DNA of 64,000 nucleotides from Dryomyza anilis. Taxonomy: Eukaryota > Arthropoda > Insecta > Diptera > Dryomyzidae. Numbering within the stretch: the stretch's first letter is position 1; each line of letters opens with the position of its first letter. The notes beneath the pieces are model-generated. The model was not told the origin of the DNA. It worked only from the letters and a program-made list of their open reading frames with translations, and did not search any database. Positions 5,096-60,416 of the stretch are shown piece after piece. The stretch is from contig OX638130.1 in NCBI GenBank assembly GCA_951804985.1, positions 108,636,040-108,700,039 on the forward strand. Reading direction: 5' to 3'. Position numbers and translations under genes: made by a program.

Positions 5096-5287
5096 TGTTA
5101 CGAAAAGATGCCCCATAGTGCAAGGAATCAACAATAATTAATGAGACGCAAGACAATTCAGCGCACTAAGCATAATTTAGAAAGAGACGGAAGATCATTC
5201 AGCGCACTGAGGCAGTGTGCGAGAAAGAGATGGAAGATCAGCGCATTAAAACACATGAGTGCGAATGAGATGCCAATAGCGTGTGTC

Positions 5288-5347: not shown

Positions 5348-5361
5348 TGATGCATGCAGTA

Positions 5362-5398
5362 TATAAAGGAGCCGCATCTGAGGTACAGCACTTCAGTA
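5362..5398 (+). promoter_or_regulatory. LTR core promoter: TATA box and initiator
   Basis: TATAAA at 5362-5367 is followed by the initiator-like TTCAGTAGT, with the presumed +1 A at 5395. The spacing of about 33 bp is right for an RNA polymerase II TATA promoter, which fixes the U3/R boundary of the LTR near 5395. Confidence 0.65.
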
Positions 5399-5621
5399 GT
5401 GATTGTAAAGTGGTCGAGGGCATCTCGTGTGATAATTGTCAAGTTAAATTGTGGATATGCAGCAGTTGTTAGAATTCGTTATTAGTGAAGTTGTTTATTA
5501 AAGTGAATTATTAAAGTTAATTGTTATAATTTAAATCAAACATAAGAGTGTTTTTATTTTGTACACAATCCAGAGACACAAACTTTTAGATCAGTTTTCC
5601 GTAGACTGAATTTTCGTAACA

Positions 5622-15535: not shown

Positions 15536-15650
15536 TGTGAGTTTTATTGTGGTGATTTTCGGTGTGGTAAGTTTCGGTGTGGTGAGTTTTGGTGTGGTGA
15601 GTTTCGGTGTGGTGAGTATCAGTGTAGTGAATTTCGGTGTGTAGTAACCA
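15536..15650. repeat. 15-bp GGTGAGTTTCGGTGT minisatellite
   Basis: About seven copies of a 15-bp unit, GTGGTGAGTTTYGGT. It is followed by GTAGTAACCAAAACTAAAATA, a segment also found before the array at 27105, so both belong to one element family. Confidence 0.75.
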
Positions 15651-16476: not shown

Positions 16477-16665
16477 GTTTTAGTGTGGTGAGTTTAAGTA
16501 TGGTGAGTTTTAGTGTGGTGAGTTTTGGTGTGGTGAGTTTCAGTGTGGTGAGTTTCGGTGTGGTGAGTTTTGGTGTGGTGAGTTTCGGTGTGGTGAGTTT
16601 CTGTGTAGTGAGTTTTGGTGTAGTGAATTTCGGTATGGTGAAATCGGTGTGGTGAGCTTAAAGAA
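16477..16665. repeat. 15-bp GGTGAGTTTTGGTGT minisatellite
   Basis: About twelve copies of the same 15-bp unit as 15536-15650. The short piece before it (TTCTTCCCCGTAGAG) matches the second 15-bp array type at 26960-27105, placing this as the continuation of the element split by the mini-me insertion. Confidence 0.75.
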
Positions 16666-23120: not shown

Positions 23121-23432
23121 TAATAATAATAATAATAGTTTGGCGCTACAGTCCTGTTTAGAACTTCGGCCGAGATCTCTCAACATTTTGAGCTGTGCGT
23201 GTTATATTTGTACTCAACGTGGTGGGACCTACAGTTTATTGCCGAATCCGAACGGCGGGTGAGAGCTTTTCATAGGCAATGTTTTACTCTCGTAGGTTTG
23301 CCATTTACTGCCGAGAGGTAGCGCGGTATAGAAAAATGTTTCTATGAAAAGATGTTGTTAGCCCCAGTCCAGGCTTGAACCGGGAACCTTTCGGCTCGCA
23401 GTCCAACGCACTAACCACTGAGCTACCGCGGC
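23121..23432 (-). mobile_element. tRNA-derived SINE, copy B, with target duplication
   Basis: Minus-strand copy of the SINE at 12262. Box A (TAGCTCAGTGG, complement at 23415-23425) and box B (GGTTCAAGCCT, complement at 23371-23381) are both intact. The (ATT)n tail is at the low-coordinate end. It is flanked by the 10-bp duplication TACTTGGAAA (23111-23120 and 23433-23442), a mark of target-primed insertion. It has an extra segment of about 50 bp near 23178-23228 that copy A lacks. Confidence 0.85.
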
Positions 23433-24158: not shown

Positions 24159-25380
24159 AAGGGCTTTTCAATAAGAGCGCTACAAAAGTTTTTTTAAATA
24201 ATTATGTAAGGAACTCGATTTCTTTTGCAAGGCATCCACGGGCATGCTTGCAGAAGTCCAGACGTTGAACCCAATTTTCGACGGTTTTCAAGCATTAATC
24301 GGCCGATATTGCTGCAATTTCACGTTCGATATTCGTACGAAGTTCATCAATCGTCGCTGGCTTGTTGGCATAGACCATAGACTTGACGTAGCCCCACAGG
24401 AAATAGTCTAACGGCGTCAAATCGCACCATCGAGTCGGCCAATCGACTGGACCATTTCGTGAGATAACACGTTCTCCAAACTTGGTTTCCAATAAATTGA
24501 TTGTGGCATTCGCTGTGTGGCTTGTGGCGCCGTCCTGTTGGAACCACATGTCCTCCAAGTCCATATCATCCAATTGGGGCCAAAAATATTCGGTTATCAT
24601 TGAACGGTAGCGCTTCCCATTCACAGTAACGTGCCGGTCTTGATCATCACGGAAGAAGTACGGGCCAATGACGCCGCCGGCCCATAAACCGCACCAAACC
24701 GTAATTTTTTCGGGATGCAATGATGACTCATGGAGTACGTGTGGATTGCTGTCTGACCATATTTTGTTTATTGACGAAGCCATTCAGCCAGAAATGAGCC
24801 TCATTGCTGAAGATGATTTTTCGATGAAAATCCGAATCATTTTCAAGTTGTTGCTCAGCCCAATTCACGATAATACGATGTTTCTGGTAATCAAGCGGCT
24901 TCAGTTCTTACGTCAATTTGATTTTGTAAGGATGTAGGCCAAGATCTTTTCGCAAAATTCGCCACAAGGACGTCACAGAGATGGCGAACGCTTGAGAACG
25001 ATGTGTGAGAGACACATTTGGGCTTTCTTCAACTGAAGCCTCAGCGGTAGCAATATTTTCGACACTACGGGCACTTCTTGGTCTCACTGGCACTCGAACA
25101 TTTTGTACTGTGCCTGTGGATTCAAATTTGTCCACTAGACGCTCAATTGTTGATCTGCTAGGACGATTATGACGACCATAAATTGGACGTAGCGCTCTTA
25201 ACGTTGAGGCCACTGACTCCGAATTTCGGTAGTAAATTTTAAAAAATTTTGACTCGTTGTTGGCTCGTATATCTTTCCATCATGAAATGGCAAACCTTAC
25301 TGAAGAGAAATGTCAAAAGAGCGTCAAGAAATATGGCGTCGTTTGCTGTCCCTGTCGCTCTACTTTTGTAGCGTCCCTTT
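24159..25380 (-). mobile_element. Tc1/mariner-superfamily transposon, near full-length (copy Ma2)
   Basis: Starts AAGGGCTTTTCAATAAGAGCG after TA (24157-24158) and ends TAGCGTCCCTTT before TA, where about 13 bp of the terminal inverted repeat appear deleted. About 1.22 kb, the longest copy of this family here. It carries a minus-strand transposase pseudogene. Confidence 0.88.
24260..25213 (-). pseudogene. Tc1/mariner transposase, near-complete but inactivated (Ma2)
   Basis: The N-terminal frame (25213-24908) covers the helix-turn-helix region (RPIYGRHNRPSRSTIERLV, SVTSLWRILRKDLGLHPYKI). The C-terminal frame (24783-24295) covers HPEKITVWCGLWAGGVIGP, QQDGATSH and CDLTPLDYFLWGYVK. Between them I see a stop codon (TAA) right after IKLT, an Asp-to-Asn change in the first catalytic motif (FSNEAHF, where Ma1 reads FSDEAHF) and an 8-bp deletion relative to Ma1 after NKQNM that shifts the frame. 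The protein cannot be active. Confidence 0.88.
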
Positions 25381-25382
25381 TA

Positions 25383-26760: not shown

Positions 26761-27850
26761 TACTAGCTGGACCCGTGCACGACTCGTGCCAAGATTTTGT
26801 GAATTCATAGATATAAAGCGATTTTATTAATATAAAAAAACATTATTATTATTTTTTTATATCAGGGCCCCGTGCTTCGCTGTGGAAGTTTTTATTGGTT
26901 TTATAAATGTAGTAACCAAATAATAATTCTCCGCCAAAACAACTTTTCTCAAAGACAATTCAGACAGTAGAATATTTCGCCGTAGAATTCTTCCCAGTAG
27001 AAATCTTCGCCGTAAAATTCTTCCCCATAGAACGCTTTACCGTAGAATTCTTCCCGGTAGAACCCTTCCCGGTAGAATTCTTCCCCGTACAGTTTTTCCC
27101 AGTAGAAGTTTTAGTGTAGTTAGTTTAAATGTGGTGAGTTTTAGTGTGTTGAATTTTTAGTTTAGTGAATTTTTTGTGTGGTGAGTTTTAGTGTGGTGTG
27201 TTTTAGTGTGGTGAGTTTTGGTGTGGTGAGTTTTAGTGTGGTGAATTTTAGTGTGGTGAATTTTTAGTGTAGTGAGTTTTAGTGTAGTGAGTTTTATTGT
27301 GGTGAGTTTTAGTGCGGTGAGTTTTAGTGTGGTGAGTTTTAGTGTGGTGAGTTTCGGTGTGGTGAGTTTTTAGTATGGTGAGTTTTAGTGTGGTGAGTTT
27401 TAGTGTGGTGAATTTTAAGTGTGGTGAGTTTTAGTGTGGTGAGGTTTAGTGTGGTGAATTTTGGTGTGGTGAGTTTTAGTATGGTGAATATTTAGTGTGG
27501 TGAGTTTTAGTGTGGTGAGATTTATTGTGGTGAGTTTTAGTGTGGTGAGTTTTAAAGTGGTGAGTGTTAATGTGGTGAGTTTTAGTGTGGTGAATTTTAG
27601 TTTTTTGTTTCATCTTTTTAGATTGTGTATGTGATGAGTTATGTCGTTTTGAAAGTTTAGGTTGTATGGGAGGTACCACGCCCCTTTGTCCAATCCCGCC
27701 CATATATATGACACCCTCCGGACTCCATAGTATCTTGGTGCAAAATTTCAGTTAAATCGGTTCAGCGGTTTAGACGTGATGCTGGAACAAACAGACAGAC
27801 AGACCGACAGACAAACTGACAGACGGACCAAGAGTTTTATATATATAGAT
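26761..27850 (+). mobile_element. 1.1-kb element with two minisatellite blocks (ACTAGCTGGAC family)
   Basis: Begins ACTAGCTGGACCCGTGCACG and ends GGACCAAGAGTTTTATATATATAG. It carries a 15-bp GTAGAATTCTTCCCC array at about 26960-27105, then a 15-bp TGGTGAGTTTTAGTG array at 27105-27605. The end segment (CACCCTCCGGACTCC, GGTTTAGACG) recurs at 13603-13768. Non-coding; class unknown. Confidence 0.65.
27105..27605. repeat. 15-bp TGGTGAGTTTTAGTG minisatellite
   Basis: About 33 units with 15-bp period and occasional single-base length changes. The same unit forms arrays at 15536, 16477, 36925 and 47724. Confidence 0.88.
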
Positions 27851-32855: not shown

Positions 32856-32874
32856 TTGCAGTTCAGTGAGTATA

Positions 32875-34167
32875 CACGGAGGGAAAAAAGTTCTAAAATC
32901 CAGAAGAAATCAAGAAGTATAAGGAGTGATATACAGCGAAACCGAAAATTCTTAATTTCAAGAAATGGATTTTCTTAGTTGTCAAAAAAATAACTAAGTA
33001 GAATTATTCTTGGATTCAGTTATTAATTTCTTAGGTATCAAAAAAGTAACTAAATAGAATTATTCTTGGATTCAGTTATTAATTTCTTAGGTATCAAAAA
33101 TGTTGTTGTTGTTTTCGTCCCAAAATTTAATGAACACGTGTTCGTATAGTTGTTGTTTTTTCGATCTTGCTTTGTCGCTATTAGTATGTTAGTATAGATA
33201 TGTTGAAAGTAATTATTTCGAAGCTAACATAAAATAAAATATAGTCGAGTTAATTTATTGTTTATTTAGAACTTTATTAGCTATATGCATTTTTGTATAG
33301 TAAATGACTTCTTTGAATACTTAATGTAATTGAATTGTTTATTTTATTTTATTTTTATTATTATTTAATTTTATCTCTGTATATTATTCTGAAACCGTTT
33401 ACTTACCTTATACACTTTCTCCTCTTTTGTTGGTTATGTATAAACCTTTCGCACGTTACCCATAAGCATTGTACAGTGTATTTAGATAACAATGGAATGA
33501 AATCAACTTCGTATTTATGCAAAATTGAACCCAAATTTATGTTTACGAACTGAAACCATACCAATATTCGTAGGAAAAATCGTAGGAAAAATCGAAAAAT
33601 CGTAACATTCATACATACACAGACGATTGCTTGTCTGGCTGTGCTTTGTTGTTCTATTCGTGAAAACACCCACATGCAAACAGTGTATGTCATGCCGTTT
33701 TTTGATACCTAAGAAAACAAAAATTTGCAATCCAGACAAATTGTACTTAGTTACTTTTTTGATACCTAAGAACTTAATGTCTGAATATCCAGAACATTTT
33801 GACTTAGTTACTTTCAACAGACAGACAAGCAGACTAAGAAACAGATGGCGACCTCGCAAAACAAAGCATACAGACAGAGCAATATCGATGAAAACAACAA
33901 CAATACATGAACACGTGTTCTTTTTGCGATGAATACAGCAACAATTTTGCGTGTTCTTTTTGGTTTTTAATAATCAATAAATTAACTTCTGAAAATCCAG
34001 TTGAATAAAGTTTGTTTATTTTTTTGACAACTAAGTAATTTGCTTTCTTGATATCCAGATGACACATTCTTGAATTTTAGCAGTATTTTATTGATATTAG
34101 TCAAATTCTACTATTTTTCTTTCTAACCGAATTCTTCTCGAGTTTTAGAATTTTATTTCCCTCCGTG
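32875..34167. mobile_element. CACGGAGGG inverted-repeat element A
   Basis: Ends CACGGAGGGAAAAAAG / ATTTCCCTCCGTG, each bordered by TATA (32871-32874, 34168-34171). Subterminal modules of about 62 bp recur (ACTTAGTTACTTTTTTGA, TACCTAAGAA). No transposase frame; about 1.3 kb and non-autonomous. Confidence 0.7.
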
Positions 34168-34674
34168 TATAAAGTGAAAATGTGTCATTTGATAGTAAAA
34201 GTGAAATTTACCAGCCAAATAAGTTAAAGTGATGTATTTTTCCATTGTTTTTGTTTTTAATGTACTTTCCTTCCTAATACTCCTTTCGCATTGACTTGTT
34301 ATATTTTCAAATGCGATTGTTTTTTTTTGTTACGCATAATTTGGATTTGTTTTTCTATCATCTGCAAGCTACAGCAATTTGGCACAATGTATGACTTTTT
34401 AATCATGAATTCTGAATAAGAAATCATAAAATATATTCCAGAACTTATACCAATTACTAATTACTCATGACTTATGAATATATTATACATAAAATATTAG
34501 TAAACATATGTAGAATTTTATTCTATTAATTATAATAATTGATTTTTACTATAATCATATATTATGAGTAAAAACCAAATCATTATAATTACTTATTCTT
34601 GGCTGTATATCATAATTAATTTTTCCAAAATTTGTGCGTATAATGCATGATTTATGAGAGTATTTTTCTCCGTG

Positions 34675-35490
34675 CAACGAAGAGGTTCTTGTTTTAAAGT
34701 ACTCGAAATTGTGCTGCTTGGCTCGAACATTTATCTTGTTATTCAATTATTTAGAATAGCTTTTTTTTAAATCCGGGAAAATATGATATTTGCATATCCA
34801 GCAGCAGTTACGGAAATGGTAGAAGCAGCAGATAATAGCATATCCTGCTGTGCTTTAAGATATTTCTGTTTGTGTAACGAAACACAAACATACACATATT
34901 TGTTGACTTAATAAACAACTTAGAAATAAATCTGATATAATTGTACAGAAAACATTCTCAAATGCATTAAGGGAAATAAGAATTTTGATTTTAGGAAAAT
35001 TTGAATGTCTATTTTTAGACAATCCTCATAAGAGAAGAAGATCAATAACTCAATAGTATAATTCATCTAGAATCTCGTGTATGATATATTGTAGATGTGA
35101 TGTATATGTAATGTAGATTATGTGTATTGTAATTCTGAGGTGAGTTTATTAAAAAAGTTATGAATACTTATAGCAAAATAAGCGTTTAGTGGTATAGAAT
35201 TTGATACTTATTTTAATGATACGGACAGCTTGAACATCGAAACTGTTTTCTCGTTTATTGATTACGTGTATTGTTTTCTTTGAACGTAGAGAGTTGGCAT
35301 TTTAGAAAAATACATTTGGGATCATTTACAGAAAAAAATTAAGCAATAACATTTCAACAGAGCAAGTTTTAAAATTTTGAAATTTATCATTTCACAGTCT
35401 GTCATATGATGTGTTTTCGAACTATCCCCAGACAACATTTTTGGCAGGGTCGAGGTGATTTATAAACATTTATAGACCTACATTTATATA
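34675..35490. other. No gene seen
   Basis: AT-rich single-copy-like DNA between two inverted-repeat elements. Confidence 0.4.
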
Positions 35491-36230
35491 AATAAAATTC
35501 TAAAACTCGAGAAGAATTCGGTTAGAAAGAAAAATAGCATAATTTGACTAATGTCAATAAAATACTATTAAAATTCAAGAAGTATTCATCTGAATATTAA
35601 GAAAGCAAATTACTTAGTTGTCAATAAAGTTTAAAAGTTTATTATACAGAATTTTCAGAATTTAATTTATTGATTATTAAAAACCAAAAAGAACACGCAA
35701 AATTGTTGCTGTATTCTTCGCAAAAGGAAAACGTGTTCATGTATCTGCTGTTGTTTTCATCGATCTTTCTTTGTCTGTAATATTCGCTTGTATGTTTTGT
35801 GTTGCGTTGCTGTTGCTGTTTGTTAGTGTGCATGTCTGTTTACTGAAAATAACTAAGCCAAATTCTTCTAGATAATAAGACATTTTGTTCTTAGGTATCA
35901 AAAAAGTAACTAAGTACAATTTTTCTGGATTGCAGATGTTTTTTCTTAGGTATCAAAAAACGGCATGATATACAATGTTTGCATGTGTGTACAGCAACAA
36001 CATTTTTGATACTTAAGATATTAATAACTGAATTCAAGACTAATTCTACTTAGTTACTTTTTTGATTCCTAAGAAATTAATAACTGAATTCAAGAAAAAT
36101 TCTACTTAGTTACTTTTTTTTGACAACTAAGTGAATCCTTTTCTTGAAATTAAAGATTTTTCGGTTTAGCTGTATATCACTTCGTATACTTCTTGATTCT
36201 TTCTGGATTTTAGAACTTTTTTCCCTCCGT
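35491..36230. mobile_element. CACGGAGGG element B, inverted relative of A, one end lost
   Basis: Runs opposite to element A, matching its right half (ACTCGAGAAGAATTCGG, GAACACGCAAAATTGTTGC) and its left end (CTGGATTTTAGAACTTTTTTCCCTCCG). The terminal CACGGAGGG at 35491 is missing, so the element is truncated there. Confidence 0.7.
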
Positions 36231-36239
36231 TTATCAACA

Positions 36240-36924: not shown

Positions 36925-37105
36925 TTAAAAACTCACCATGCAAAAACTCACAAAAATTCATTACACAAAAACTCGACACCAAAACTGACTACAGCTAAAA
37001 CTCACCACTTTTAAAATTAATTACACCAAATATTAAAAATTCAAAAAAATCATCACAAAAAATTCACCATACCAAATACTCACCACACTAAAAACTCACA
37101 ACAAT
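36925..37105. repeat. 15-bp AAAACTCACCACACC minisatellite (left flank)
   Basis: Reverse complement of the TGGTGAGTTTTAGTG unit, degenerate, about 12 units. It borders the older satellite and reappears in the same orientation at 47724-47815 on the other side. Confidence 0.7.
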
Positions 37106-37625
37106 TTTTAACCGAGCATAAACAGACCGTTTACAGAGGCGAGGTCAGTGGAAATAATTCCTCAATCTGTGCATATAAAGGGCCACTGTCCAGTCGGTGA
37201 TGACTGTGTACTAACCGAACCTAATACGTAGGGTAGCTAATGGATAGGGCTTTCCAAAATTATATAACAAACGTTTGGATCGATCTTTCTAACAATTTTA
37301 ATTTCTTTTTTGAAAATGGGTCATATTTGGTGGGAAAAGTGGCCATGATGATGTGGTCACCGTCCAGTCAGGGATAACTGTGTACTAACCGTAACCTAAT
37401 ACGTTGGATTGGCATGGATAGGGCTTTCCAAAAATATATACCAAAAATTTTGATCGATCTACCTAACATTTTTATTTTTTTTTTGAAAATGGGTAATATT
37501 TGGTAGAAAAAGTGGTCATGTTTAAGTTACTACTGTCCAGTCGGGGATGACGGTGTCCTAACCGCACCAAGTACGTCGGATAGGCAATGAATAGGGTTTT
37601 TCAAAAATATATACTAAAAGTTTGA
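37106..37625 (+). repeat. Older 174-bp tandem repeat (left flank of foldback element)
   Basis: Begins with a diverged form of the subterminal module TTAACAGAGCGTTAACAG, followed by three units with GTCCAGTC at 37188, 37362 and 37535 (spacing 173-174). The units are distant relatives of the 193-bp monomer (shared GGATAGG.AATG.ATAGGGCTTT.CAAA and GATCGATC). The last unit is interrupted by the foldback element and resumes at 47638. Confidence 0.7.
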
Positions 37626-37754
37626 AAGTATGTGAAGTTAAATACGTATTTTTTTTAGCAAAGACACAAACCAATTTTTTTTACAGAGCATTAACAGAGC
37701 GTTAACAGCCGCTATGTTAGCGGATGAAATCCTCCGATTGGTACACATAAATGA

Positions 37755-40700
37755 CTCCGAATCCGTCCAGGATCTTCATGATGGAACGGAATTTAGTACA
37801 TTGGATAGCTAATGAATAGGGCTTTCCAAATATGTAACCTACATATACTGATCGATCCATTAGACATTTTATATACATTTTTAAACTTGGTCATATATTG
37901 AGAAAAAGTGGTGATGATGAAGTGGACAGTACTCCGTCCACGGTCCCCGTGCTGGAACTTCTTAGAGTAGGTTGGATAGGTAATGATTAGAGCTTTCCAA
38001 ATCTGTGACCTACATAGTTGGATCGATACGCTGGATATTTTTTATGAATTTTTAAAACTTGACCATTTACAAGCAACAAAAATATTCATATGAAGAAAAA
38101 GTCATGATGATGAAATGGCCACTACTCCGGCCATGGTTCCCGTGCTGGAACTTCTTATAGTAGGTTGGATACGTAATGATTAGTGCTTTTCAAATATGTG
38201 ATCCACATAGTTGGATCGATACGCAGGATATTTTTAATGAATTTTTGAAACTTGGCCATTTACAAGCAACAAAATTATTCATATGAAGAAAAAGTCATGA
38301 TCATGAAGTGGCCACTACTCCGTCCATGGTCCCCGTGCTGGAACTTCCTATTGTAGGTTGGAAAGGTAATGATTAGGGCTTTTCAAATATGTGATCGACA
38401 TAGTTGGATCGATACGCTGGATATTTTTAATGAATTTTTGAAACTTGACCATTTACAAGGAACAAAAATATTCATATGAAGAAAAAGTCATGATCATGAA
38501 GTGGCCACTACTTCGTCCATGGTCCCCGTGCTGGAACTTCTTATAGTAGGTTCGATAGGTAATGATTAGGGCTTCTCAAATATGTGATCCATTTAGTTCG
38601 AGCGTTACGCTGGATATTTTTTATGAATTTTAGAAACTTGACCATTTACAAGCAACAAAAATATTCATATGAAGAAAAAGTCATGATCATGAAGTGGCCA
38701 CTACTCCGTCCATGGTCCCCGTGCTGGAACTTCTTATAGTAGGTTGGATAGGTAATGATTAGGGCTTTTCAAATATGTGATCGACATAGTTGGATCGATA
38801 CGCTGGATATTTTTTATGAATTTTTGACCATTTACAAGGAACAAAAATATTCATATGAAGAAAAAGTCATGATGATGAAGTGGCCACGACTCCGTCCATG
38901 GTCCCCGTGCTGGAACTTCTTATAGTAGCTTGGATAGGTAATGATTAGGGCTTCTCAAATATGTGATCCATATAGTTCGAGCGATACGCTGGATATTTTT
39001 TATGAATTTTAGAAACTTGACCATTTACAAGCAACAAAAATATTCATATGAAGAAAAAGTCATGATGATGAAGTGGCCACTACTCCGTCCATGGTCCCAG
39101 TGCTGGAACTTTTTATAGTAGGTTGGATAGGTAATGATTAGGGCTTTTCAAATATGTGATCGATATAGTTGGATCGATACGCTGGATATTTTTTATGAAT
39201 TTTTGAAACTTGACCATTTACAAGGAACAAAAATATTCATATGAAGAAAAAGTCATCATTATGAAGTGGCCACTACTCCGTCCATGGTCCCCGTGCTGGA
39301 ACTTCTTATAGTAGGTTGGATAGGTAATGATTAGGGCTTTTCAAATATGTGATCGACATAGTTGGATCGATACGCTGGATATTTTTTATGAATTTTTGAA
39401 ACTTGACCATTTACAAGGAACAAAAATATTCATATGAAGAAAAAGTCATGATGATGAAGTGGCCACGACTCCGTCCATGGTCCCCGTGCTGGAACTTCTT
39501 ATAGTAGGTTGGATAGATAATGATTAGGGCTTTTCAAATATGTGATCGACATAGCTGGATCGATACGCTGGATATTTTTTATGAATTTTTGAAACTTGAC
39601 CATTTACAAGGAACAAAAATATTCATATGAAGAAAAAGTCATGATCATGAAGTGGCCACTCCTCCGTCCATGGTCCCCGTGCTGGAACTTCTTATAGTAG
39701 GTTAGATAGGTAATGATTAGGGCTTCTCAAATATGTGATCCGTATAGTTCGTACGATACGCTGGATATTTTTTATGAATTTTAGAAACTTGACCATTTAC
39801 AAGCAACAAAAATATTCATATGAAGAAAAAGTCATGATGATGAAGTGGACACGACTCCGTCCATGGTCCCCGTGCTGGAACTTCTTATAGTAGGTTGGAT
39901 AGGTAATGATTAGGACTTTTCAAATATGTGATCGATATAGTTCGAGCGATACGCTGGATATTTTTTATGAATTTTAGAAACTTGACCATTTACAAGCAAC
40001 AAAAATATTCATATGATGAAAAAGTCATGATGATGAAGTGGCCACGACTCCGTCCATGGTCCCCGTGCTGGAACTTCTTATAGTAGGTTGGATAGATAAT
40101 GATTAGGGCTTTTCAAATATGTGATCGACATAGATGGATCGATACGCTGGATATTTTTTTATGAATTTTTGAAACTTGACCATTTACAAGGAACAAAAAT
40201 ATTCATATGAAGAAAAAGTCATGATCATGAAGTGGCCACTACTCCGTCCATGGTCCCCGTGCTGGAACTTCTTATAGTAGGTTGGATAGGAAATGATTAG
40301 GGCTTTTCAAATATGTGATCGACATAGTTGGATCGATACGCTGGATATTTTTTATGAATTTTTGAAACTTGACCATTTACAAGGAACAAAAATATTCATA
40401 TGAAGAAAAAGTCATGATCATGAAGTGGCCACTACTCCGTCCATGGTCCCCGTGCTGGAACTTCTTATAGTAGGTTGGATAGATAATGATTAGGGCTTCT
40501 TAAATATGTGATCCATATAGTTCGAGCGATACGCTGGATATTTTTTATGAATTTTAGAAACTTGACCATTTACAAGCAACAAAAATATTCATATGAAGAA
40601 AAAGTCATGATGATGAAGTGGCCACGACTCCGTCCATGGTCCCCGTGCTGGAACTTCCTGTAGTAGGTTGGATAGGTAATGATTAGGGCTTTTCAAATAT

Positions 40701-42895
40701 GTGATCGACATAGTTGGATCGATACGCTGGATATTTTTTATGAATTTTTGAAACTTGACCATTTACAAGGAACAAAAATATTCATATGAAGAAAAAGTCA
40801 TGATGATGAAGTGGCCACGACTCCGTCCATGGTCCCCGTGCTGGAACTTCTTATAGTAGGTTGGATAGGTAATGATTAGGGCTTTTCAAATATGTGATCG
40901 ATATAGTTCGAGCGATACGCTGGATATTTTTTATGAATTTTAGAAACTTGACCACATTCAAGCAACAAAAATATTCATTTGAAGAAAAATTCATGATGAT
41001 GAAGTGGCCACGACTGCGTCCATGGTCCCCGTGCTGGAACTTCTTATAGTAGGTTGGATAGGTAATGATTAGGGCTTTTCAAATATGTGATCCATATAGA
41101 TCGAGCGATACGCTGGATATTTTTTATGAATTTTAGAAACTTGACCATTTACAAGCAACAAAAATATTCATATGATGAAAAAGTCATGATGATGAAGTGG
41201 CCACGACTCCGTCCATGGTCCCCGTGCTGGAACTTCTTATAGTAGGTTTGATAGGTAATGATTAGAGCTTCTTAAATATGTGATCCATATAGTTCGAGCG
41301 ATACGCTGGATATTTTTGATGAATTTTAGAAACTTGACCACATTCAAGCAACAAAAATATTCATATGATGAAAAAGTCATGATGATGAAGTGGCCACGAC
41401 TCCGTCCATGGTCCCCGTGCTGGAACTTCTTATAGTAGGTTTGATAGGTAATGATTAGGGCTTTTCAAATATGTGATCGATATAGTTCGAGCGATACGCT
41501 GGATATTTTTTATGAATTTTAGAAACTTGACCATTTACAAGCAACAAAAATATTCATATGATGAAAAAGTCATGATGATGAAGTGGCCACGACTCCGTCC
41601 ATGGTCCCCGTGCTGGAACTTCTTATAGTAGGTTGGATAGGTAATGATTAGGGCTTCTCAAATATGTGATCGACATAGTTGGATCGATACGCTGGATATT
41701 TTTTATGAATTTTTGAAACTTGACCATTTACAAGGAACAAAAATATTCATATGAAGAAAAAGTCATGATGATGAAATGGCCACTACTCCGTCCATGGTTC
41801 CCGTGCTGGAACTTCTTATAGTAGGTTGGATAGGTAATGATTAGGGCTTTTCAAATATGTGATCCATATAGTTCGAGCGATACGCTGGATATTTTTTATG
41901 AATTTTAGAAACTTGACCATTTACAAGCAACAAAAATATTCATATGAAGAAAAAGTCATGATGATGAAGTGGCCACGACTCCGTCCATGGTCCCCGTGCT
42001 GGAACTTCTTATAGTAGGTTGGATAGGTAATGATTAGGACTTTTCAAATATGTGATCGATATAGTTCGAGCGATACGCTGGATATTTTTTATGAATTTTA
42101 GAAACCTGACCATTTACAAGCAACAAAAATATTCATATGATGAAAAAGTCATGATGATGAAGTGGCCACGACTCCGTCCATGGTCCCCGTGCTGGAACTT
42201 CTTATAGTAGGTTGGATAGATAATGATTAGGGCTTTTCAAATATGTGATCGACATAGTTGGATCGATACGCTGGATATTTTTTATGAATTTTTGAAACTT
42301 GGCCATTTACAAGCAACAAAAATATTCATATGAAGAAAAAGTCATGATGATGAAATGGCCACTACTCCGTCCATGGTTCCCGTGCTGAAACTTCTTATAG
42401 TAGGTTGGATAGGTAATGATTAGTGCTTTTCAAATATGTAATCTACATAGTTAGATCGATACGCTGGATATATTTTATGAATTTTTGAAACTTGACCATT
42501 TACAAGGAACAAAAATATTCATATGATGAAAAAGTCATGATGAGGAAGTATCCTCTGCTCCGTCCATGGTTTCCGTGCTGGAATTTCTTATAGTAGTTGG
42601 ATCGATACGCTGGATATATTTTATGAATTTTTGAAACTTGACCATTTACAAGCAACAAAAATATTCATATGAAGAAAAAGTCATGATGATGTAGTAGCCA
42701 CTACTCCGTCCATGGTCCCCGTGCTGGAACTTATTAGTAGGTTGTATTAGTAGGTTGGATTGGTAATGATTACATTTTTCCAAATATGTGACCTACATAG
42801 TTGGATCGATACGCTGGATATATTTAATGAATTTTAGAAACTTGACTATTTACAAGCAACAAAAATATTCGTATGAAGAAAAAGTCATGATGAAG
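37755..42895 (+). repeat. 193-bp satellite array, left arm (about 27 units)
   Basis: The motif CCATGGTCCCCGTGCTGG recurs at 38324, 38517, 38710, 38896, 39089 and 39282, mostly 193 bp apart. Monomers fall into two classes: one reads GTTGGATCGATACG with TTTTTGAAACTTG and CAAGGAAC, the other GTTCGAGCGATACG with TTTTAGAAACTTG and CAAGCAAC. The outermost units are the most diverged. Confidence 0.93.
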
Positions 42896-43913
42896 TTTTG
42901 TATTTTTTTATATTACTGTTTTTGTATTCAATAATATATTATAATAATATCAAATATTATGCTAATATAAAATATTATAGAAAAATTTTAAGATATTAAA
43001 AAGAAAATTAAAAAATTAGAGATAACAAGAAAAAAAAAACAATGTAAATATTAACGATAAATTTAAAATTTAACTTAAATATATATGTATACATGTTTTT
43101 GCAAGATGTTTACCCTTTTTGTATACAACAATATATATACAAGTTAAACTTTATTTTATGAAAACATATCGTATAATAACTGGAAACCTTTTTCTAAACA
43201 TCTACTTATGAAAAATTAATTATTTCCATTTTAGATAAAAAGCATTGTGAAATGGTATATGTGAATTAAAAAAATTAAAAAATTCACATATATTGACCCT
43301 TTGGTTCACCCAATTCACAATATTAGTTCGAATCATTTGGAAATTTATCAGAAATATTAAGTCTTTTAAAAATAAATTATGTTGATCTTCACCATTTTAC
43401 GAGTTTGAAAAATGTTTTAGTAGAACATAATTTTTGAATAGATTCTTTTAACTGTATATGTTTCACAATTTTCTAAAAACTGAATTAAAGGACAACAGCT
43501 AACTAATTAAGAAGATACTAAATCGTTTCGATTAAAAATGAAAGGCTGTTCATTAAATATATAGCAACAATGTATTAAACATGCTTTCATTGTGAACGAC
43601 AAATAAAAGAAGATTTACATAATTCGAACATTGTATAGGAGGAAAATATGTTAATATTGTTTTCCTATCATCTATCAATTGACTGCAGATTTAAAATGTA
43701 TTGTAATAAATATACTAATATAAAAGGTTATAGAAAAAAGATATTTAATTTATTTTTAATTATGTATACTGGCATAAAATGCAGTCCAATTTTTCTAAAA
43801 CTGCAGTCTTCAGATAGATGCTAGAATAACAAGACGAACATATTTTTCTCCTACATTTTGAACAATATAAATTTAAAGACAACATACAATTATACTTATT
43901 AATTTTGGTTTGC
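42896..43913. other. Spacer of the foldback element
   Basis: About 1.0 kb of AT-rich sequence unrelated to the satellite, with no open frame, hairpin or known element recognised. Confidence 0.7.
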
Positions 43914-46900
43914 GTTGTAAATGGTCAAGTTTCGAAAATTCATTAAAAATATCCAGCGTATCGATCCAACTATGTCGATTACATATTTAAAAAGCCCTAA
44001 TCATTACCTGTCCAACCTACTATAAGAATTTCCAGCACGGGGACCATGGACGGAGTAGTGGCCACTTCATCATCATGACTTTTTCATCATATGAATATTT
44101 TTGTTCCTTGTAAATGGACAAGTTTCAAAAATTCATAAAAAATATCCAGCGTATCGATCCAACAATGTCGATCACATATTTGAAAAGCCCTAGTCATTAC
44201 CTATCCAACCTACTATAAGAAGTTCCAGCACGGGGACCATGGACGGAGTCGTGGCCACTTCATCGTCATGACTTTTTCATCATATGAATATTTTTGTTGC
44301 TTGTAAATGGTCAAGTTTCTAAAATTCATAAAAAAATATCCAGCGTATCGATCCATCTATGTCGATCACATATTTGAAAAGCCCTAATCATTACCTATCA
44401 AACCTACTATAAGAAGTTCCAGCACGGGGACCATGGACGGAGTCGTGGCCACTTCATCATCATGACTTTTTCATCATATGAATATTTTTGTTGCTTGAAT
44501 GTGGTCAAGTTTCTAAAATTCATCAAAAATATCCAGCGTATCGCTCGAACTATATGGATCACATATTTAAGAAGCTCTAATCATTACCTATCAAACCTAC
44601 TATAAGAAGTTCCAGCACGGGGACCATGGACGGAGTCGTGGCCACTTCATCATCATGACTTTTTCATCATATGAATATTTTTGTTGCTTGTAAATGGTCA
44701 AGTTTCTAAAATTCATAAAAAATATCCAGCGTATCGCTCGATCTATATGGATCACATATTTGAAAAGCCCTAATCATTACCTATCCAACCTACTATAAGA
44801 AGTTCCAGCACGGGGACCATGGACGCAGTCGTGGCCACTTCATCATCATGAATTTTTCTTCAAATGAATATTTTTGTTGCTTGAATGTGGTCAAGTTTCT
44901 AAAATTCATAAAAAATATCCAGCGTATCGCTCGAACTATATGGATCACATATTTAAGAAGCCCTAATCATTACCTATCCAACCTACTATAAGAAGTTCCA
45001 GCACGGGGACCATGGACGGAGTCGTGGCCACTTCATCATCATGACTTTTTCTTCATATGAATATTTTTGTTCCTTGTCAATGGTCAAGTTTCAAAAATTC
45101 ATAAAAAAATATCCAGCGTATCGATCCATCTATGTCGATCACATATTTGAGAAGCCCTAATCATTACCTATCCAACCTACTATAAGAAGTTCCAGCTCGG
45201 GGACCATGGACGGAGTCGTGGCCACTTCATCATCATGACTTTTTCATCATATGAATATTTTTGTTGCTTGTAAATGGTCAAGTTTCTAAAATTCATAAAA
45301 AATATCCAGCGTATCGCTCGAACTATATCGATCACATATTTGAAAAGTCCTAATCATTACCTATCCAACCTACTATAAGAAGTTCCAGCACGGGGACCAT
45401 GGACGGAGTAGTGGCCACTTCATGATCATGACTTTTTCTTCATATGAATATTTTTGTTCCTTGTAAATGGTCAAGTTTCAAAAATTCATAAAAAATATCC
45501 AGCATATCGATCCAACTATGTCGATCACATATTTGAAAAGCCCTAATCATTACCTATCCAACCTACTATAAGAAGTTCCAGAACGGGGACCATGGACGGA
45601 GTAGTGGCCACTTCATGATCATGACTTTTTCTTCATATGAATATTTTTGTTCCTTGTAAATGGTCAAGTTTCAAAAATTCATAAAAAATATCCAGCGTAT
45701 CGATCCAACTATGTCGATCACATATTTGAAAAGCCCTAATCATTACCTATCCAACCTACTACAGGAAGTTCCAGCACGGGGACCATGGACGGAGTCGTGG
45801 CCACTTCATCATCATGAATTTTTCTTCATATGAATATTTTTGTTGCTTGTAAATGGTCAAGTTTCAAAAATTCATAAAAAATATCCAGCGTATCGATCCA
45901 ACTATGTCGATCACATATTTGAAAAGCCCTAATCATTATCTATCCAACCTACTATAAGAAGTTCCAGCACGGGGACCATGGACGGAGTCGTGGCCACTTC
46001 ATCATCATGACTTTTTCTTCATATGAATATTTTTGTTGCTTGTAAATGGTCAAGTTTCTAAAATTCATAAAAAATATCCAGCGTATCGCTCGAACTATAT
46101 GGATCACATATTTGAGAAGCCCTAATCATTACCTATCGAACCTACTATAAGAAGTTCCAGCACGGGGACCATGGACGGAGTAGTGGCCACTTCATGATCA
46201 TGACTTTTTCTTCATATGAATATTTTTGTTCCTTGTAAATGGTCAAGTTTCAAAAATTCATAAAAAATATCCAGCGTATCGGTCCAACTATGTCGATCAC
46301 ATATTTGAAAAGCCCTAATCATTACCTATCCAACCTACTATAAGAAGTTCCAGCACGGGGACCATGGACGGAGTAGTGGCCACTTCATAATGATGACTTT
46401 TTCTTCATATGAATATTTTTGTTCCTTGTAAATGGTCAAGTTTCAAAAATTCATAAAAAATATCCAGCGTATCGATCCAACTATGTCGATCACATATTTG
46501 AAAAGCCCTAATCATTACCTATCCAACCTACTATAAAAAGTTCCAGCACTGGGACCATGGACGGAGTAGTGGCCACTTCATCATCATGACTTTTTCTTCA
46601 TATGAATATTTTTGTTGCTTGTAAATGGTCAAGTTTCTAAAATTCATAAAAAATATCCAGCGTATCGCTCGAACTATATGGATCACATATTTGAGAAGCC
46701 CTAATCATTACCTATCCAACCTACTATAAGAAGTTCCAGCACGGGGACCATGGACGGAGTCGTGGCCACTTCATCATCATGACTTTTTCTTCATATGAAT
46801 ATTTTTGTTCCTTGTAAATGGTCAAAAATTCATAAAAAATATCCAGCGTATCGATCCAACTATGTCGATTACATATTTGAAAAGCCCTAATCATTACCTA

Positions 46901-47490
46901 TCCAACCTACTATAAGAAGTTCCAGCACGGGGACCATGGACGGAGTAGTGGCCACTTCATGATCATGACTTTTTCTTCATATGAATATTTTTGTTCCTTG
47001 TAAATGGTCAAGTTTCAAAAATTCATTAAAAATATCCAGCGTATCGATCCAACTATGTCGATCACATATTTGAAAAGCCCTAATCATTACCTTTCCAACC
47101 TACTATAAGAAGTTCCAGCACGGGGACCATGGACGGAGTAGTGGCCACTTCATGATCATGACTTTTTCTTCATATGAATAATTTTGTTGCTTGTAAATGG
47201 CCAAGTTTCAAAAATTCATTAAAAATATCCTGCGTATCGATCCAACTATGTGGATCACATATTTGAAAAGCACTAATCATTACGTATCCAACCTACTATA
47301 AGAAGTTCCAGCACGGGAACCATGGCCGGAGTAGTGGCCATTTCATCATCATGACTTTTTCTCAATATATGACCAAGTTTAAAAATGTATATAAAATGTC
47401 TAATGGATCGATCAGTATATGTAGGTTACATATTTGGAAAGCCCTATTCATTAGCTATCCATTGTACTAAATTCCGTTCCATCATGAAGA
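43914..47490 (-). repeat. 193-bp satellite array, right arm (about 18 units, inverted)
   Basis: The same monomers in reverse complement (CCAGCACGGGGACCATGG every 193 bp). Rare variants of the left arm reappear here in the mirrored order, including a 7-bp shorter unit, CATCATTATGAAG, CCCAGTGCTGG and CATTTGAAGAAAAATTC. Confidence 0.93.
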
Positions 47491-47637
47491 TCCTGGACGG
47501 ATTCGGAGTCATTTATGTGTACCAATCGGAGGATTTCATCCGCTAACATAGCGGCTGTTAACGCTCTGTTAATGCTCTGTTAAAAAAATTGGTTTGTGTC
47601 TTTGCTAAAAAAAATACGTATTTAATTTCACATACTT

Positions 47638-47715
47638 AAGTTTGAATCGATCTTCCGAACATTTTTAATTTTTTTTTTAAATTGGTCATATATTTAAAAT
47701 TTCCATGTTACTGAG
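47638..47715 (+). repeat. Older 174-bp repeat, continuation right of the foldback element
   Basis: AAGTTTGAATCGATCTTCCG, then AACATTTTTAATTTT and ATTGGTCATATATT, in the same orientation as the units at 37188-37617. This is the right half of the unit split by the insertion. Confidence 0.7.
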
Positions 47716-47723
47716 CTGATCAA

Positions 47724-47815
47724 AACTCACCTCACCAAAACTCACCATACCAAAACTCACCACACCAAAACTTACCATACCAAAAACTCACCACACTAAA
47801 ACTCACCGCACCAAA
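47724..47815. repeat. 15-bp AAAACTCACCACACC minisatellite (right flank)
   Basis: About six units in the same orientation as 36925-37105, implying one original array split by the nested insertions. Confidence 0.75.
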
Positions 47816-49076
47816 AAAACAAAAACTTAATAAAAATTAGACAGTAGATAAAATAAAATGTCTACAGTTGAGTCCATGCCTTTGCATTTACAAAATCTTT
47901 TCCTATAATAATAAAACAGTAACTCATTTTTTTATATATTAATTTTATTGAATTTCTTTAAATATTGTTGTTTGATGTACATGTTTAGCATGGACTTTTT
48001 GTGCATTATTTTGCGTTGCAACCAACTGCAACTGGACCAAAGAAAGTAACAAATATAAAAACCATAAACAACCATGCAAATTGCCTACTAGTTTGTGCTG
48101 CATTTTCTATGTTTTCTTTTTTTTTTTTGTATATTAATTATTACATTTATTAAACATAATTTATATATTTATGAATTGTGTGACAAGTCAATAATGGCGA
48201 CACTATTAAAACTATAAATGTTAAAAGTGAAATTCTTCACAATTTGTTATTTTTTTTTAAGTTTTATTTTTTTTTATTATAGACTTAAACCTGCAGAACA
48301 GGATATATTAACGTTATTTTTGAATTGATTTTTATGTTTTACACATTTTTTATTGTATTATTTTGTTGAAATTTTGGATTTTAATTTTATGTTAAATCTA
48401 AATTCTGCAAATACAAAATTTGGTTTTAGTAACCAATAACTCGGCGCAATTTTAAAACAGTTTGGTGCATTTTTTAAAAAATTGCATGCATTTTGAAGTG
48501 TTTTTAGTTTAAAATATTTTAAAAATGAGTTGAGCTATTGGTACTAAATAATTTCTTATTTTGTTTTTTTTTGTAATTTATAACATTTTGAATTATTGAC
48601 TGAATTGAACTTTTGAAGTTGTCACCTGTGATTTCGTTTGTTAAAATGTTGTTATTATTTTTCCAAATTTTATTTTATTTTGCAAAATGTTTTTTTTTTT
48701 TGCAAAGATTATTTCAATTTTAATTTTTTATTTTACTTTAAAAAAAGTTACTAATATTTATTTGTTTTTTTTTGTAATATATTTTCTTTTTTCTCTTTAT
48801 AATAAATACAATAATTTTGGCATTTTTTTTGTTATAATTTTTTTTTATGCTACAAAAAAACACGAACGACTTTGCGTTTAGCAATTTGACTTGTTTTTCA
48901 ATTCTCCATTTTGGCTTCTCAATAATTGCACATTTTTACTCTCTGTTCTGTTCTGTCCTGTCTCTCTCTCTCTTGCACTTGCTCTCTATGTCACTGACGC
49001 TCTTGTTCTCTCACTTTCGAAAGCGCTATTTTTAACACTCTCTTTTGATGTTTTACGCTCTCTTGCGGCTGTCATT
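47816..49076 (-). other. Downstream of the lectin gene; probable 3' UTR and poly(A) signals
   Basis: AT-rich with no gene. Minus-strand AATAAA hexamers occur at 48757-48762 (about 315 nt after the stop), 48263-48268 and 48146-48151. Which is used cannot be told. Short (TC)n near 48958-48974. Confidence 0.4.
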
Positions 49077-58409: not shown

Positions 58410-60416
58410 CTTATTGTTGCTTTATAGTTGTTTTAAAGTTGTTTCATGGTTTTTTTATAGTTGCTTTATTGTTGCTTTAGAGTGGCTTCATAGTTGTTTT
58501 ATAGTTGCTTTATGGTTGCTTTATATTTTCTTAATAGTTTATTAATAGTTGCTTTGTAGATGCTATATAGTTACTATATAGCTATTTTATAGTCGCTCTA
58601 CAGTTGCTTTATTGTTGTATAGTTGTTTTATGGTTGCTTCATAGTTGTCTTATAGTTGCTTCATGGTTGCTTTATAGTTCCTTTAAAGTTATTCAATAGT
58701 TGCTTAAAAGTTGCTTAATAATTGCTTTACAGTTGCTCTATAGTTGCTTTATATTTGCTCTCTAGTTGATTTATAGTTGCTTTATAATTGCTTTATAGTT
58801 GATTTATAGTTGCTATATATTTGCTTTATAGTTGCTTTATAGTTTCTATATAGTTTATTTATAGTAGCTTTATAGTTGCTTTATAGTTGCTTTATATTTT
58901 CTAAATAGTTACTTAAAAGTTGCTTTATAGTTGCTTTATATTTTCTAAATAGTTACTTAAAAGTTTTTAATAGTTTCTTTATAGATGCTATATAGTTCCT
59001 ATATAGCTGTTTTATTGTCGTTCTATAGTTGCCTTATTGTTGCTCTATAGTTTCTTTATAGTTGCTTTATATTTTCTCAATAGTTTATTAATATTTGCTT
59101 TGTAGATGCATATTTGCTTTATTGTTGATGTATAGTTGTTTTATAATTGGTCTATGGTTGCTTTATTGTTGATGTATAGTTGCTTTAGAGTTGCTTTGTA
59201 GTTGCTTAATAGTCGCTTTATAGTTGCTTTATAGTTGCTTTATAGCTGCTTTATAGTTGCTTTATAGTTGCTTTATAGTTGCTTTATGGTTGCTTTATAG
59301 TTGCTTTATAGTTGCTTTATAGTTGCTTTATGGTTGCTTTATAGTTGCTTTATAGTTGCATTATAGTTGCTTTATAGTTGCTTTATAGTTGCTTTATAGT
59401 TGCTTTATATTTGTTTTGTAGTTGCTTTATAGTTGCTTTATTGTTGCTTTATAGTTGCTTTATTGTTGCTTTATAGTTACTTTATAGTTGCTTTATAGTT
59501 GCTTTATAGTTGCTTTATAGTTGCTTTATAGTTGCTTTATATTTGTTTTGTAGTTGCTTTATAGTTGCTTTATAGTTGCTTTATAGTTGCTTTATAGTTA
59601 CTTTATAGTTGCTTTATAGTTGCTTTATAGTTGCTTTATAGTTGCTTTATAGTTGCTTCATAGTTGCTTTATAGTTGCTTTATATTTGTTTTGTAGTTGC
59701 TTTATAGTTGCTTTATAGTTGCTTTATAGTTGCTTTATAGTTACTTTATAGTTGCTTTATAGTTGCTTTATAGTTACTTTATAGTTGCTTTATAGTTGCT
59801 TTATAGTTGCTTTATAGTTGCTTTATAGTTGCTTTATATTTGTTTTGTAGTTGCTTTATAGTTGCTTTATAGTTGCTTTATAGTTACTTTATAGTTGCTT
59901 TATAGTTGCTTTATAGTTGCTTTATAGTTGCTTTATGGTTGCTTTATAGTTGCTTTATAGTTGCTTTATTGTTGCTTTATAGTTACTTTATAGTTGCTTT
60001 ATAGTTGCTTTATAGTTGCTTTATAGTTGCTTTATAGTTGCTTTATAGTTGCTTTATAGTTGCTTCATAGTTGTTTTATAGTTGCTTTATAGTTGCTTTA
60101 TAGTTGCTTTATTGTTGCTTTATAGTTGCTTTATAGTTGCTTCATAGTTGTTTTATAGTTGCTTTATAGTTGCTTTGTAGTTGCTTTATAGTTGCTTTAT
60201 AGTTTCTTCATAGTTGTTTTATAGTTGATTTATGGTTGCTTTATAGTTCCTTCAAAGTTATTCAATAGTTGCTTAAAAATTGCTTAATAATTGTTTTACA
60301 TTTGCTCTATAGTTGCTTTATATTTGCTCTCTAGTTGATTTATAGTTGCTTTATAATTGCTTTATAGTTGATTTATAGTTGCTTTACAGTTGCTTTATAG
60401 TTGCTTTATAGTTGCT
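58410..60416. repeat. 11-bp TTTATAGTTGC minisatellite array (about 2 kb)
   Basis: About 180 units of TTGCTTTATAG, homogeneous in the centre (59170-60150) and degenerate at both edges. Variants ATTGTTGC and TTTGTTTTGTAG recur at regular longer intervals, suggesting a higher-order period. It lies upstream of the 57894 exon, so presumably within an intron of the lectin gene. Confidence 0.93.

Follow-up and report, generated by a model that had tools for sequence, protein, structure and literature searches.

A foldback DNA transposon with arms of a 193-bp satellite in Dryomyza anilis and its probable place among Mutator-like elements

Results

Structure of the element in the window

The window, a stretch of 64,000 nucleotides from Dryomyza anilis, contains a foldback DNA transposon at positions 37626-47637 (Table 1), which confirms the first observation made on this sequence. 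The ends of this copy read AAGTATGTGAA inward from both sides, and positions 37626-41358 aligned with 47637-43902, taken as the reverse complement, at 94.7% identity (3743 alignment columns). Inverted ends and 193-bp arrays in opposite orientation had already been described in the first-pass annotation, and the alignment bears this out. Using TRF, 24.4 copies of period 193 bp were found in the left array (37901-42602), with monomer matches extending to 42893, and 17.9 copies in the right array (43902-47362). The best register between the arms was a shift by three monomers (96.1% vs 94.1% without the shift, 18 monomers). Therefore, the arms were first alike as blocks, and the number of monomers changed later.

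Table 1. Features of the window copy and its insertion site, as positions in the window
Feature	Position	Strand	Remarks
Left-hand host sequence made of 173-bp repeat units	37105..37625	+	
Left target-site duplication AAGTTTGA	37618..37625	+	9-bp AAAGTTTGA at 37617-37625 fits the left flank too
Left terminal inverted repeat (TIR), outer non-satellite part	37626..37761	+	
Left TIR, inner part, a diverged monomer	37762..37900	+	74-77% like the array monomers of this copy
Left arm, 193-bp satellite in tandem	37901..42893	+	26 full monomers by nhmmer, counted over the entire arm
AT-rich core	42891..43901	+	1.0 kb, non-satellite
Decayed 3'-terminal remnant of the putative transposase gene	43183..43290	+	52.8% identity, 36 residues, internal stops
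Right arm, same satellite inverted	43902..47362	-	18 full monomers by nhmmer, counted over the entire arm
Right TIR in inverted orientation, comprising the outer 136 bp and a diverged inner monomer	47363..47637	-	
Right target-site duplication AAGTTTGA	47638..47645	+	
Host sequence right of the element, remainder of the interrupted 173-bp unit	47646..47715	+	

The exact duplication noticed earlier at both borders is present. When the flanks were joined and one 8-bp copy was removed, the alignment with a neighbouring 173-bp host unit ran continuously across the joint and scored 86.5, compared with 55.0 and 36.5 for the single flanks, so that excision does restore the host repeat unit as had been proposed. 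With AAAGTTTGA in the left flank and AAGTTTGA in the right, a 9-bp duplication that has lost one A fits this site as well as an 8-bp duplication. The host sequence at 37090-37326 was 66.8% alike to positions 35-271 of the TIR, and other host pieces were 67-73% like the element. Judged from these alignments, the host repeat is itself an old relative of the element's family, and the element sits inside it.

Ends, pairs and target-site duplications across the genome

In the genome of 656.6 Mb the outermost 33 bp of the end matched at 102 places and the reversed control pattern at none. The element is non-autonomous, as had been suspected, and its family has many copies. Of 100 listed end places, 84 could be joined into 42 pairs, all of them outward-facing and distributed over six contigs, with lengths of 2068-16506 bp (median 6886). 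Conservation of the first 40 bp of the outer TIR was 99.8-100% by 10-bp blocks (48 ends of 24 copies). Besides, the flanks of L039/L040 and of L041/L042 were found to be reverse complements of each other, showing at least one large inverted duplication in the genome.

Both flanks were available for 36 copies, namely 32 from among the 42 exact pairs plus four copies with variant ends. An exact 9-bp duplication was found in 25 of these, an exact 10-bp duplication in one and an exact 8-bp duplication in three (the window copy, L014 and L036); two further copies agreed in 8 of 9 bases and five had no duplication. In mismatched flanks taken from different copies no match at 9 bp (0/1260) and three matches at 8 bp (3/1260) were observed. 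The expectation that other copies would carry 8-bp duplications thus held as far as their presence is concerned, but not for their length: the rule of the family is 9 bp, not 8.

A satellite array that was inverted in place, by array recombination or as an assembly artefact, would involve no transposon. The interior is nearly all satellite, tandem arrays do invert, and the inverted duplication mentioned above belongs to the same genome. Nevertheless, the 42 outward-facing end pairs spread over six contigs, the duplications of 8-10 bp or with one mismatch in 31 of 36 copies, and the insertion point within a repeat unit that closes cleanly leave this explanation a negligible probability. For the family, simple satellite inversion is refuted by the end pairs and duplications, and the original reading as a mobile foldback element stands. 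Copies L035 and L036, located on different chromosomes (C3 and C1), were 99.9% alike over 9692 bp, and their match begins at most one base from the first base of the element. Such similarity on two chromosomes argues for recent movement.

Arms, monomers and copies without a core

In 24 elements nhmmer identified 639 full monomers. Their number per arm ranged from 0 to 33 and was often unequal, e.g. 28/7 and 14/33; at the maximum of 33, as in L018, an arm measures about 6.8 kb. The family thus shows the long inverted repeats of tandem units, differing in length among copies and arms, that characterize foldback elements. Across the fetched copies, the diverged monomer of the inner TIR was 69-78% identical to the array monomers, and the satellite array looks like a multiplied form of this inner end. 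A 30-bp monomer word had 306 matches against 44 exact ends in the 24 fetched copies; if the satellite were confined to the elements, about 709 matches would be expected for 102 ends.

The core of the window copy shared 93.9-100% identity with 10 other fetched copies (in L037 and L021 in pieces). Among 29 copies, 17 were coreless, and these fell into 13 distinguishable centres when grouped by centre-specific words. Omitting the overlapping loci L001-L008, the same three shared groups were obtained with 24-mers and 16-mers. A duplication, either of 8-10 bp or matching in eight of nine bases, was retained in 15 of the 16 coreless copies examined.

A transposase-like gene in long copies

The search for larger relatives with the same ends that had been suggested was successful: copies of 14.5, 16.1 and 16.5 kb contain a putative transposase gene. 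A 311-aa frame from L020 served as query for further gene copies. The match at C4:27080454-27081368 (95%) lies, by its coordinates, in a 780-aa open frame with no stop and sits between the exact end pair C4:27071593/27086091. A second one at C1:56494448-56494924 (92%, one stop) is located between the ends at C1:56486147/56502232, a pair with an exact duplication of 9 bp. The third gene-bearing copy, L020/L038, is broken and has no duplication; it is composite, as a sister element is nested in it and its right end is present three times. Three further close gene copies (C2:74221650, C1:64661865 and C1:61478787) are in no listed exact pair.

The window core was 88.8% identical to L020, and its positions 261-565 aligned with 3617-3325 of L020 at 73.6% DNA identity. 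The core accordingly retains a decayed 3'-terminal piece of the transposase gene. As the core aligns with both the flank of the gene and its 3' end, the short copies with a core descend from a gene-bearing copy. Alternatively, the gene could be a passenger, brought in by an unrelated element that inserted into the foldback element, while another, unseen enzyme moves the family. The composite nature of L020, the gene copies outside the listed exact pairs and the lack of a direct Pfam match for the transposase would fit such a history. On the other hand, the gene is enclosed by end pairs at three different loci, and for two of these it was the gene, not the ends, that led to the locus. Moreover, ordinary copies carry a core that aligns with it, and 9-bp duplications are common for Mutator-like elements (MULEs). 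We therefore regard a passenger gene as improbable.

Relatives of the putative transposase

A direct scan of the family transposase against Pfam gave no match, even at E 10, and a PDB sequence search with the 311-aa piece returned two chance-level matches only (E 0.42 and 0.44). In viral contigs searched for relatives of the transposase, 10 stretches fitted a pattern and none was confirmed. AlphaFold2 predictions from single sequence for two pieces of the broken L020 protein were unusable (pLDDT 36.5 and 29.9). A resemblance of the transposase tail to Ulp1 was an impression with no computed support and was set aside.

Within the genome, relatives with 685-aa frames were detected at C6:51544978, 51555148 and 51565591 (E 6.6e-12 to 1.1e-11, 30-31% identity), which are perhaps copies of one element. 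Taken alone, these three places scored 27.5 bits against PF10551, and 27.9 bits together with their neighbours, the Pfam cut-off for MULE being 27.6. Five more relatives coincided with weaker PF10551 matches of 19.0-23.8 bits. The family transposase itself is absent from the 58 PF10551 places in the genome, of which 50, including the strongest, lie outside the 36 places matched by the 311-aa piece; conversely, PF10551 gave no match at 28 of these 36. Since the family protein has no direct Pfam match and its relatives lie near the cut-off, the link to MULEs is a two-step one, close to that cut-off.

Discussion

The element in the window would be best explained as a non-autonomous foldback transposon of a Mutator-like (MULE) family that is served in trans by the transposase of the long copies, and we consider this explanation as a whole highly likely. 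MULEs produce target duplications of 8-11 bp, mostly 9 bp, and the family has exact 9-bp duplications in most copies (25/36). In addition, its TIRs exceed the 100 bp used to recognize MULEs, with about 275 bp of non-array TIR plus the arrays. A transposase domain of the DDE type is a further mark of MULEs, to which this family is linked in two steps near the PF10551 cut-off. The 9-bp rule suggests Mutator-like elements rather than hAT or P.

In the first-pass annotation an 8-bp superfamily such as hAT or P had been considered possible; under this reading the 9-bp cases would represent 8 bp plus one base. Exact 8-bp duplications do occur in the window copy, L014 and L036, and the missing direct match of the transposase to the Pfam MULE model could be read in the same way. 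The ends of hAT elements start with CAG or TAG, which the ends of this family do not resemble, and exact 8-bp duplications (3/36) are far outnumbered by those of 9 bp. Likewise, the predominance of 9 bp does not suit the P superfamily with its 7- or 8-bp target duplications. The 9/9 match was never seen in the mismatched controls, and distant relatives of the associated transposase touch the PF10551 cut-off. Moreover, the mosquito MULE Muta1 is described as giving 8- or 9-bp duplications (PMC5225508), so a few 8s are to be expected of a MULE. Judged by the duplications, the ends and the relatives of the transposase, an assignment to hAT or P, as originally suggested, is very unlikely.

How such an element may be maintained can be outlined as follows. 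The element ends would consist of the conserved outer ~136 bp and the diverged monomer. A transposase from copies like the 14.5-kb one with its 780-aa frame would act on these ends in trans, and the predicted enzyme would excise the element and insert it at a 9-bp staggered cut. Arrays may be lengthened or shortened by unequal exchange or slippage, which would explain why arm lengths differ. The core, which would derive in part from the region of the transposase gene, would be dispensable and may have been lost many times, leaving elements of little but satellite. Most speculative is the step in which the monomers bear predicted transposase-binding sites, which would explain the multiplication of monomers in the arms.

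A further-reaching view would be that of a mobile satellite, in which transposition itself drives the multiplication of the satellite and the monomers are putative transposase-binding units copied from the TIR. Arrays would then expand since arms that are longer or bind better would transpose more often; a copy lacking the core would be satellite DNA jumping whole. Sister subfamilies with monomers of 173, 183 and 193 bp, each with its own transposase and ends, would seed related satellites genome-wide. We put this forward as a tentative idea that is possible but doubtful at present.

FB/NOF of D. melanogaster and Galileo likewise have a foldback form with tandem repeats in their arms, the repeats of FB being short. 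Galileo belongs to the P superfamily, unlike the MULE placement proposed here. Its TIR repeats carry extra transposase-binding sites (cited in PMC4079207). The closest known system that we found, likened by architecture, is Tetris of Drosophila virilis, which according to its description is also a foldback element whose TIR comprises an outer flanking domain and ~220-bp tandem repeats resembling part of it, with 8-10 bp duplications and repeats able to form satellite (PMC4079207). Its authors propose membership in Mutator, and the description gives three complete copies, TIRs of at most 1735 bp and no transposase found (PMC4079207). In contrast, the family in D. anilis has 42 end pairs among the 100 listed places; its arms reach 33 full monomers, many copies lack the core, and transposase genes lie between the shared ends. 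In the accessible text of a 2026 paper on D. virilis transposons, Tetris appears only in the reference list (PMC12910113).

Similar features have been reported for other Mutator-like families. Among MULEs, a FLYWCH-type DNA-binding domain characterizes the Phantom/Muta group and a PHD finger transposase the Rehavkus group. Tm1 of root-knot nematodes, a Mutator/foldback element, shares composite TIRs with a variable number of tandem units and mostly 9-bp duplications (8-10 bp in 45 of 53 complete elements), and some copies contain a Phantom-like MULE transposase (PMC3169594). Its units measure 13-15 bp as opposed to 193 bp, and its authors suggest an inactive, decaying family (PMC3169594). Muta1 and the other Muta families of Aedes aegypti are dipteran MULEs whose duplications likewise measure 8 or 9 bp and whose TIRs contain subterminal tandem repeats (PMC5225508). 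Muta1 moves in yeast and was classed as a type 2 foldback; with 145-bp TIRs, 12-bp units and a length of 3198 bp it differs from the present family, having no satellite-length monomers in its description (PMC5225508). Rehavkus MULEs share 9-bp duplications and a 'minisatellite in Cterm', and Phantom MULEs share 8-10 bp duplications, with TIRs from none to 613 bp; these are minisatellites, in contrast to inverted arrays of 193 bp (PMC6446971). Among the papers listed by the literature searches, none seemed to describe the family reported here.

Foldback elements with satellite-like arms were already known, as for Tetris, described from three complete copies with no known transposase (PMC4079207). 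The present family offers dozens of copies, near-identical twins and gene-bearing copies with the same ends, as well as 13 distinguishable coreless centres in 17 copies and sister subfamilies nested within one another. These make two questions testable, namely which enzyme moves such satellite-armed foldback elements and whether satellite monomers multiply through binding of that enzyme. It also illustrates how kilobases of satellite can reach new places as a single unit.

Results

Both ends of the foldback element read AAGTATGTGAA inward, and AAGTTTGA is present on either side as target duplication. The left array contains 26 full 193-bp monomers in a single orientation and the right array 18 in the opposite orientation. 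The arms align at 94.7% across 3743 columns, and monomer by monomer their best register is shifted by three units. When the flanks are joined, a single host unit of 173 bp runs through the junction, which bears out the first-pass annotation that excision restores the host repeat. Pieces of this host sequence are 67-73% identical to the element, and window 37090-37326 matches positions 35-271 of the terminal inverted repeat (TIR) at 66.8%. By these matches, the sequence into which the element jumped is itself a decayed family relative.

Coordinates of the foldback element and of transposase sequences of the family (C1, C4 and C6 are contigs of the same genome)
Feature	Position	Strand	Description
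Foldback element	window 37626-47637		10,012 bp
AT-rich core of the element	window 42891-43901		1.0 kb
Decayed transposase remnant	window 43183-43290		36 residues, 52.8% (tblastn)
Frame in L020 (16.5-kb copy, C6)	4259-5194	minus	311 aa
Frame in L020 (16.5-kb copy, C6)	3474-4295	minus	273 aa
Transposase gene copy	C4:27080454-27081368		95%, 780-aa open frame, inside exact pair 27071593/27086091
Transposase gene copy	C1:56494448-56494924		92%, one stop, inside pair 56486147/56502232

Further TIR copies, for which the first-pass annotation had proposed a search, were found in the genome (656.6 Mb, 69 contigs; the window is C1:108636040-108700039). A search with the element's outermost 135 bp on the left yielded 427 candidates, and each of the 40 scored had 98-100% identity. 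The exact first 33 bp occurred at 102 places and the reversed pattern at none genome-wide. Of 100 listed places, 84 belong to 42 end pairs; every pair is outward-oriented, and they span 2068 to 16506 bp (median 6886). At least four of the 16 unpaired ends have a variant-end partner (L017/L018, L024, L029, L034), and for L033 the partner end was absent from the stretch examined. The copies L035 (C3:72192131) and L036 (C1:98796840) are 99.9% identical across 9692 bp, in a match beginning at most 1 base from the element's first base and extending through the shorter compared stretch; the same 10.5-kb element thus stands at two places, and its transposition was recent.

The flank comparison covered 36 copies, 32 from among the 42 exact pairs plus four with a variant end (L017/L018, L024, L029 and L034). 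An exact 9-bp duplication was found in 25 of them, while left flanks compared with right flanks of other copies matched in 0/1260 cases at 9 bp and 3/1260 at 8 bp. Therefore, the duplication length of the family is 9 bp. The 8-bp duplication described in the first-pass annotation is exact for the window copy, and likewise for L014 and L036 (the latter measured with L047 as other end), but does not hold as a family rule. L028 has an exact 10-bp duplication, and in L013 and L022 8/9 bases match. Flanks did not match in L024, L027, the composite copy L020/L038, L039/L040 and L041/L042; since those of the last two are mutually reverse complementary, these are copies of one locus. The duplicated sites are rich in A+T and have no clear consensus.

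L024 has no direct duplication; an identical 25-bp sequence flanks this copy on both sides (276-300 and 5242-5266) in inverted orientation, which looks like a TIR lengthened by 25 bp of other DNA. The L039-L042 insertion and its flanks are present at two sites separated by 184 kb, one inverted relative to the other (C1:30685994-30689633 and C1:30869819-30873458). The midpoint between two equal-scoring PF10551 matches, C1:30596261(+) and C1:30963202(-), nearly coincides with that of the two sites. The region would be either a large inverted duplication (at least about 367 kb) or an assembly fold-back.

The 639 full monomers of 24 whole copies are on average 91.5% identical within an arm versus 89.7% between elements, and in opposite arms of one element monomers of the same ordinal reach 91.7% versus 90.4% for other ordinals. 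Hence the arrays change within each copy, and the two arms are partly coupled. From about position 137 to 272 the TIR itself consists of a diverged monomer with 69-78% identity to those of the arrays; it looks as if the array had multiplied from the element end.

A core or its relative was found, in either orientation, in 12 of 29 copies (the window and 28 others). The remaining 17 are coreless with arrays almost directly abutting; the centre of L034 is a short spacer of other sequence. Three groups of centres (L010/L011, L014/L025 and L027/L030/L033) share specific 24-mers or 16-mers, and such words are common to no other coreless centres, so that 13 are distinguishable, a count that strong divergence of an old common centre could inflate. 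In the 16 coreless copies with compared flanks (all except L033), the duplication is exact at 9 bp in L010, L011, L012, L019, L023, L025, L026, L029, L030, L031 and L034; L028, L014, L013 and L022 have the lengths stated for them, and the flanks of L027 have none. As coreless copies keep duplications, movement apparently does not require the core.

Within the core of L021 lies a 2.3-kb insert (3229-5530) with ends CAGAGACGGGACT, 8 bp of core repeated (ACTAAAAC) and repetitive frames, which we take to be a hAT-like element. In L020 the core alignment is broken at about 3000-3325 by a tRNA-like sequence of ~320 bp between two ACCCCACAATTA copies, read by eye as probably a SINE insertion.

The two frames of L020 are mutually out of frame. 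Of 62 genomic candidates for the 311-aa piece, all of them scored, 36 places matched, two of them inside end pairs (table), so that the transposase-bearing relative with the same TIR sought in the first-pass annotation is present; the C1 pair is flanked by an exact 9-bp duplication, AAACAGTGT. Other close gene copies, outside the listed exact pairs, are C2:74221650 (98%), C1:64661865 and C1:61478787. The window core aligns with L020 at 88.8% across 854 columns, and its positions 261-565 match a stretch including the gene's 3' end at 73.6%. The transposase remnant has E 5.6e-4 among all family loci compared and 7.4e-6 against the core, and the reversed core gave a best E of 3.4. The alignment and the remnant indicate that core-bearing short copies derive from a gene-bearing ancestor.

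Nesting of the kind seen in the window recurs in L020/L038, where the inserted element is of a sister subfamily whose monomers measure 183 bp and whose ends are AAGTCCGTGAAGTTAAATTCGTC. These ends have AAGT..GT.AAGTTAAAT.CGT and GACACAAACC in common with the window family, and the monomers of the three subfamilies have TAGGGCTTT.CAAA and GATCGAT in common; we only infer that these motifs are candidate binding sites.

Several other repeats lie in the window. A 15-16-bp minisatellite (CAAAACTCACCACAC or complement) occurs at 15537-15641, 16483-16656, 27107-27601, 37054-37103 and 47721-47816, and at two of these sites, which share one orientation, it borders the host repeat to the left and to the right of the element. 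Positions 32872-33112 and 36234-35991 form an inverted match (91.0% across 244 columns), each side carries a 56-bp tandem repeat in roughly two copies, and 32872-36234 looks like another, smaller foldback-type element. An 11-bp unit, TTATAGTTGCT, forms a 2-kb array of 183 copies at 58411-60416. The pieces 24253-25381 and 6780-7544, presumably of a mariner-like transposase, are 94.7% identical across 582 columns and have shorter relatives at 20905 and 53773; in a Pfam scan of three pieces one matched DUF4817. The mariner-like genes, with the general character of the sequence, suggest a fly as host. At 23360-23432 (minus strand) a weak tRNA match (29.3 bits, cut-off 29) is probably a tRNA-derived repeat, because ARAGORN found no tRNA there.

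Discussion

The first-pass annotation had tentatively placed the family in an 8-bp-duplication superfamily (hAT, P or relatives). Our data favour a Mutator-like element (MULE) instead, because of the 9-bp duplications and the overlap of transposase relatives with PF10551 (MULE). The link has two steps. The 311-aa and 273-aa pieces had no Pfam match even at E 10, and the family's own transposase gene is absent from the 58 genomic places with PF10551. At C6:51545044, 51555412 and 51565855, PF10551 scores 27.5 bits alone and 27.9 with frame neighbours (cut-off 27.6), and the 311-aa piece matches the same places at E 6.6e-12 to 1.1e-11. Below the cut-off (19.0-23.8 bits) both searches coincide at C1:6843184, C5:24393957, C6:18045339, C6:33930788 and C1:60200290. 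The 311-aa piece missed 50 of the 58 PF10551 places, the best included, and among the 36 that it did match, 28 had no PF10551 match. On the best reading, the family would be a MULE branch far from the standard MULEs of this genome.

Tetris, Tm1 and Muta1 have the same architecture, and Tetris also has a shorter version of the likeness between TIR and monomer, 37 bp at about 80% (PMC4079207). Among the table entries considered from an arthropod MULE survey, the longest TIR is 1527 bp (Hemiptera) and that of Diptera 431 bp (PMC13359780), whereas one arm in our family (L017+L018) has 33 full monomers and about 6.8 kb. That survey required a transposase frame >300 aa, and satellite-only copies would therefore fall outside it (PMC13359780). 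The general kind of element is known; what we file as new is a foldback MULE whose arms reach satellite length, which has coreless forms made up of satellite only, and which is accompanied by copies that carry the gene.
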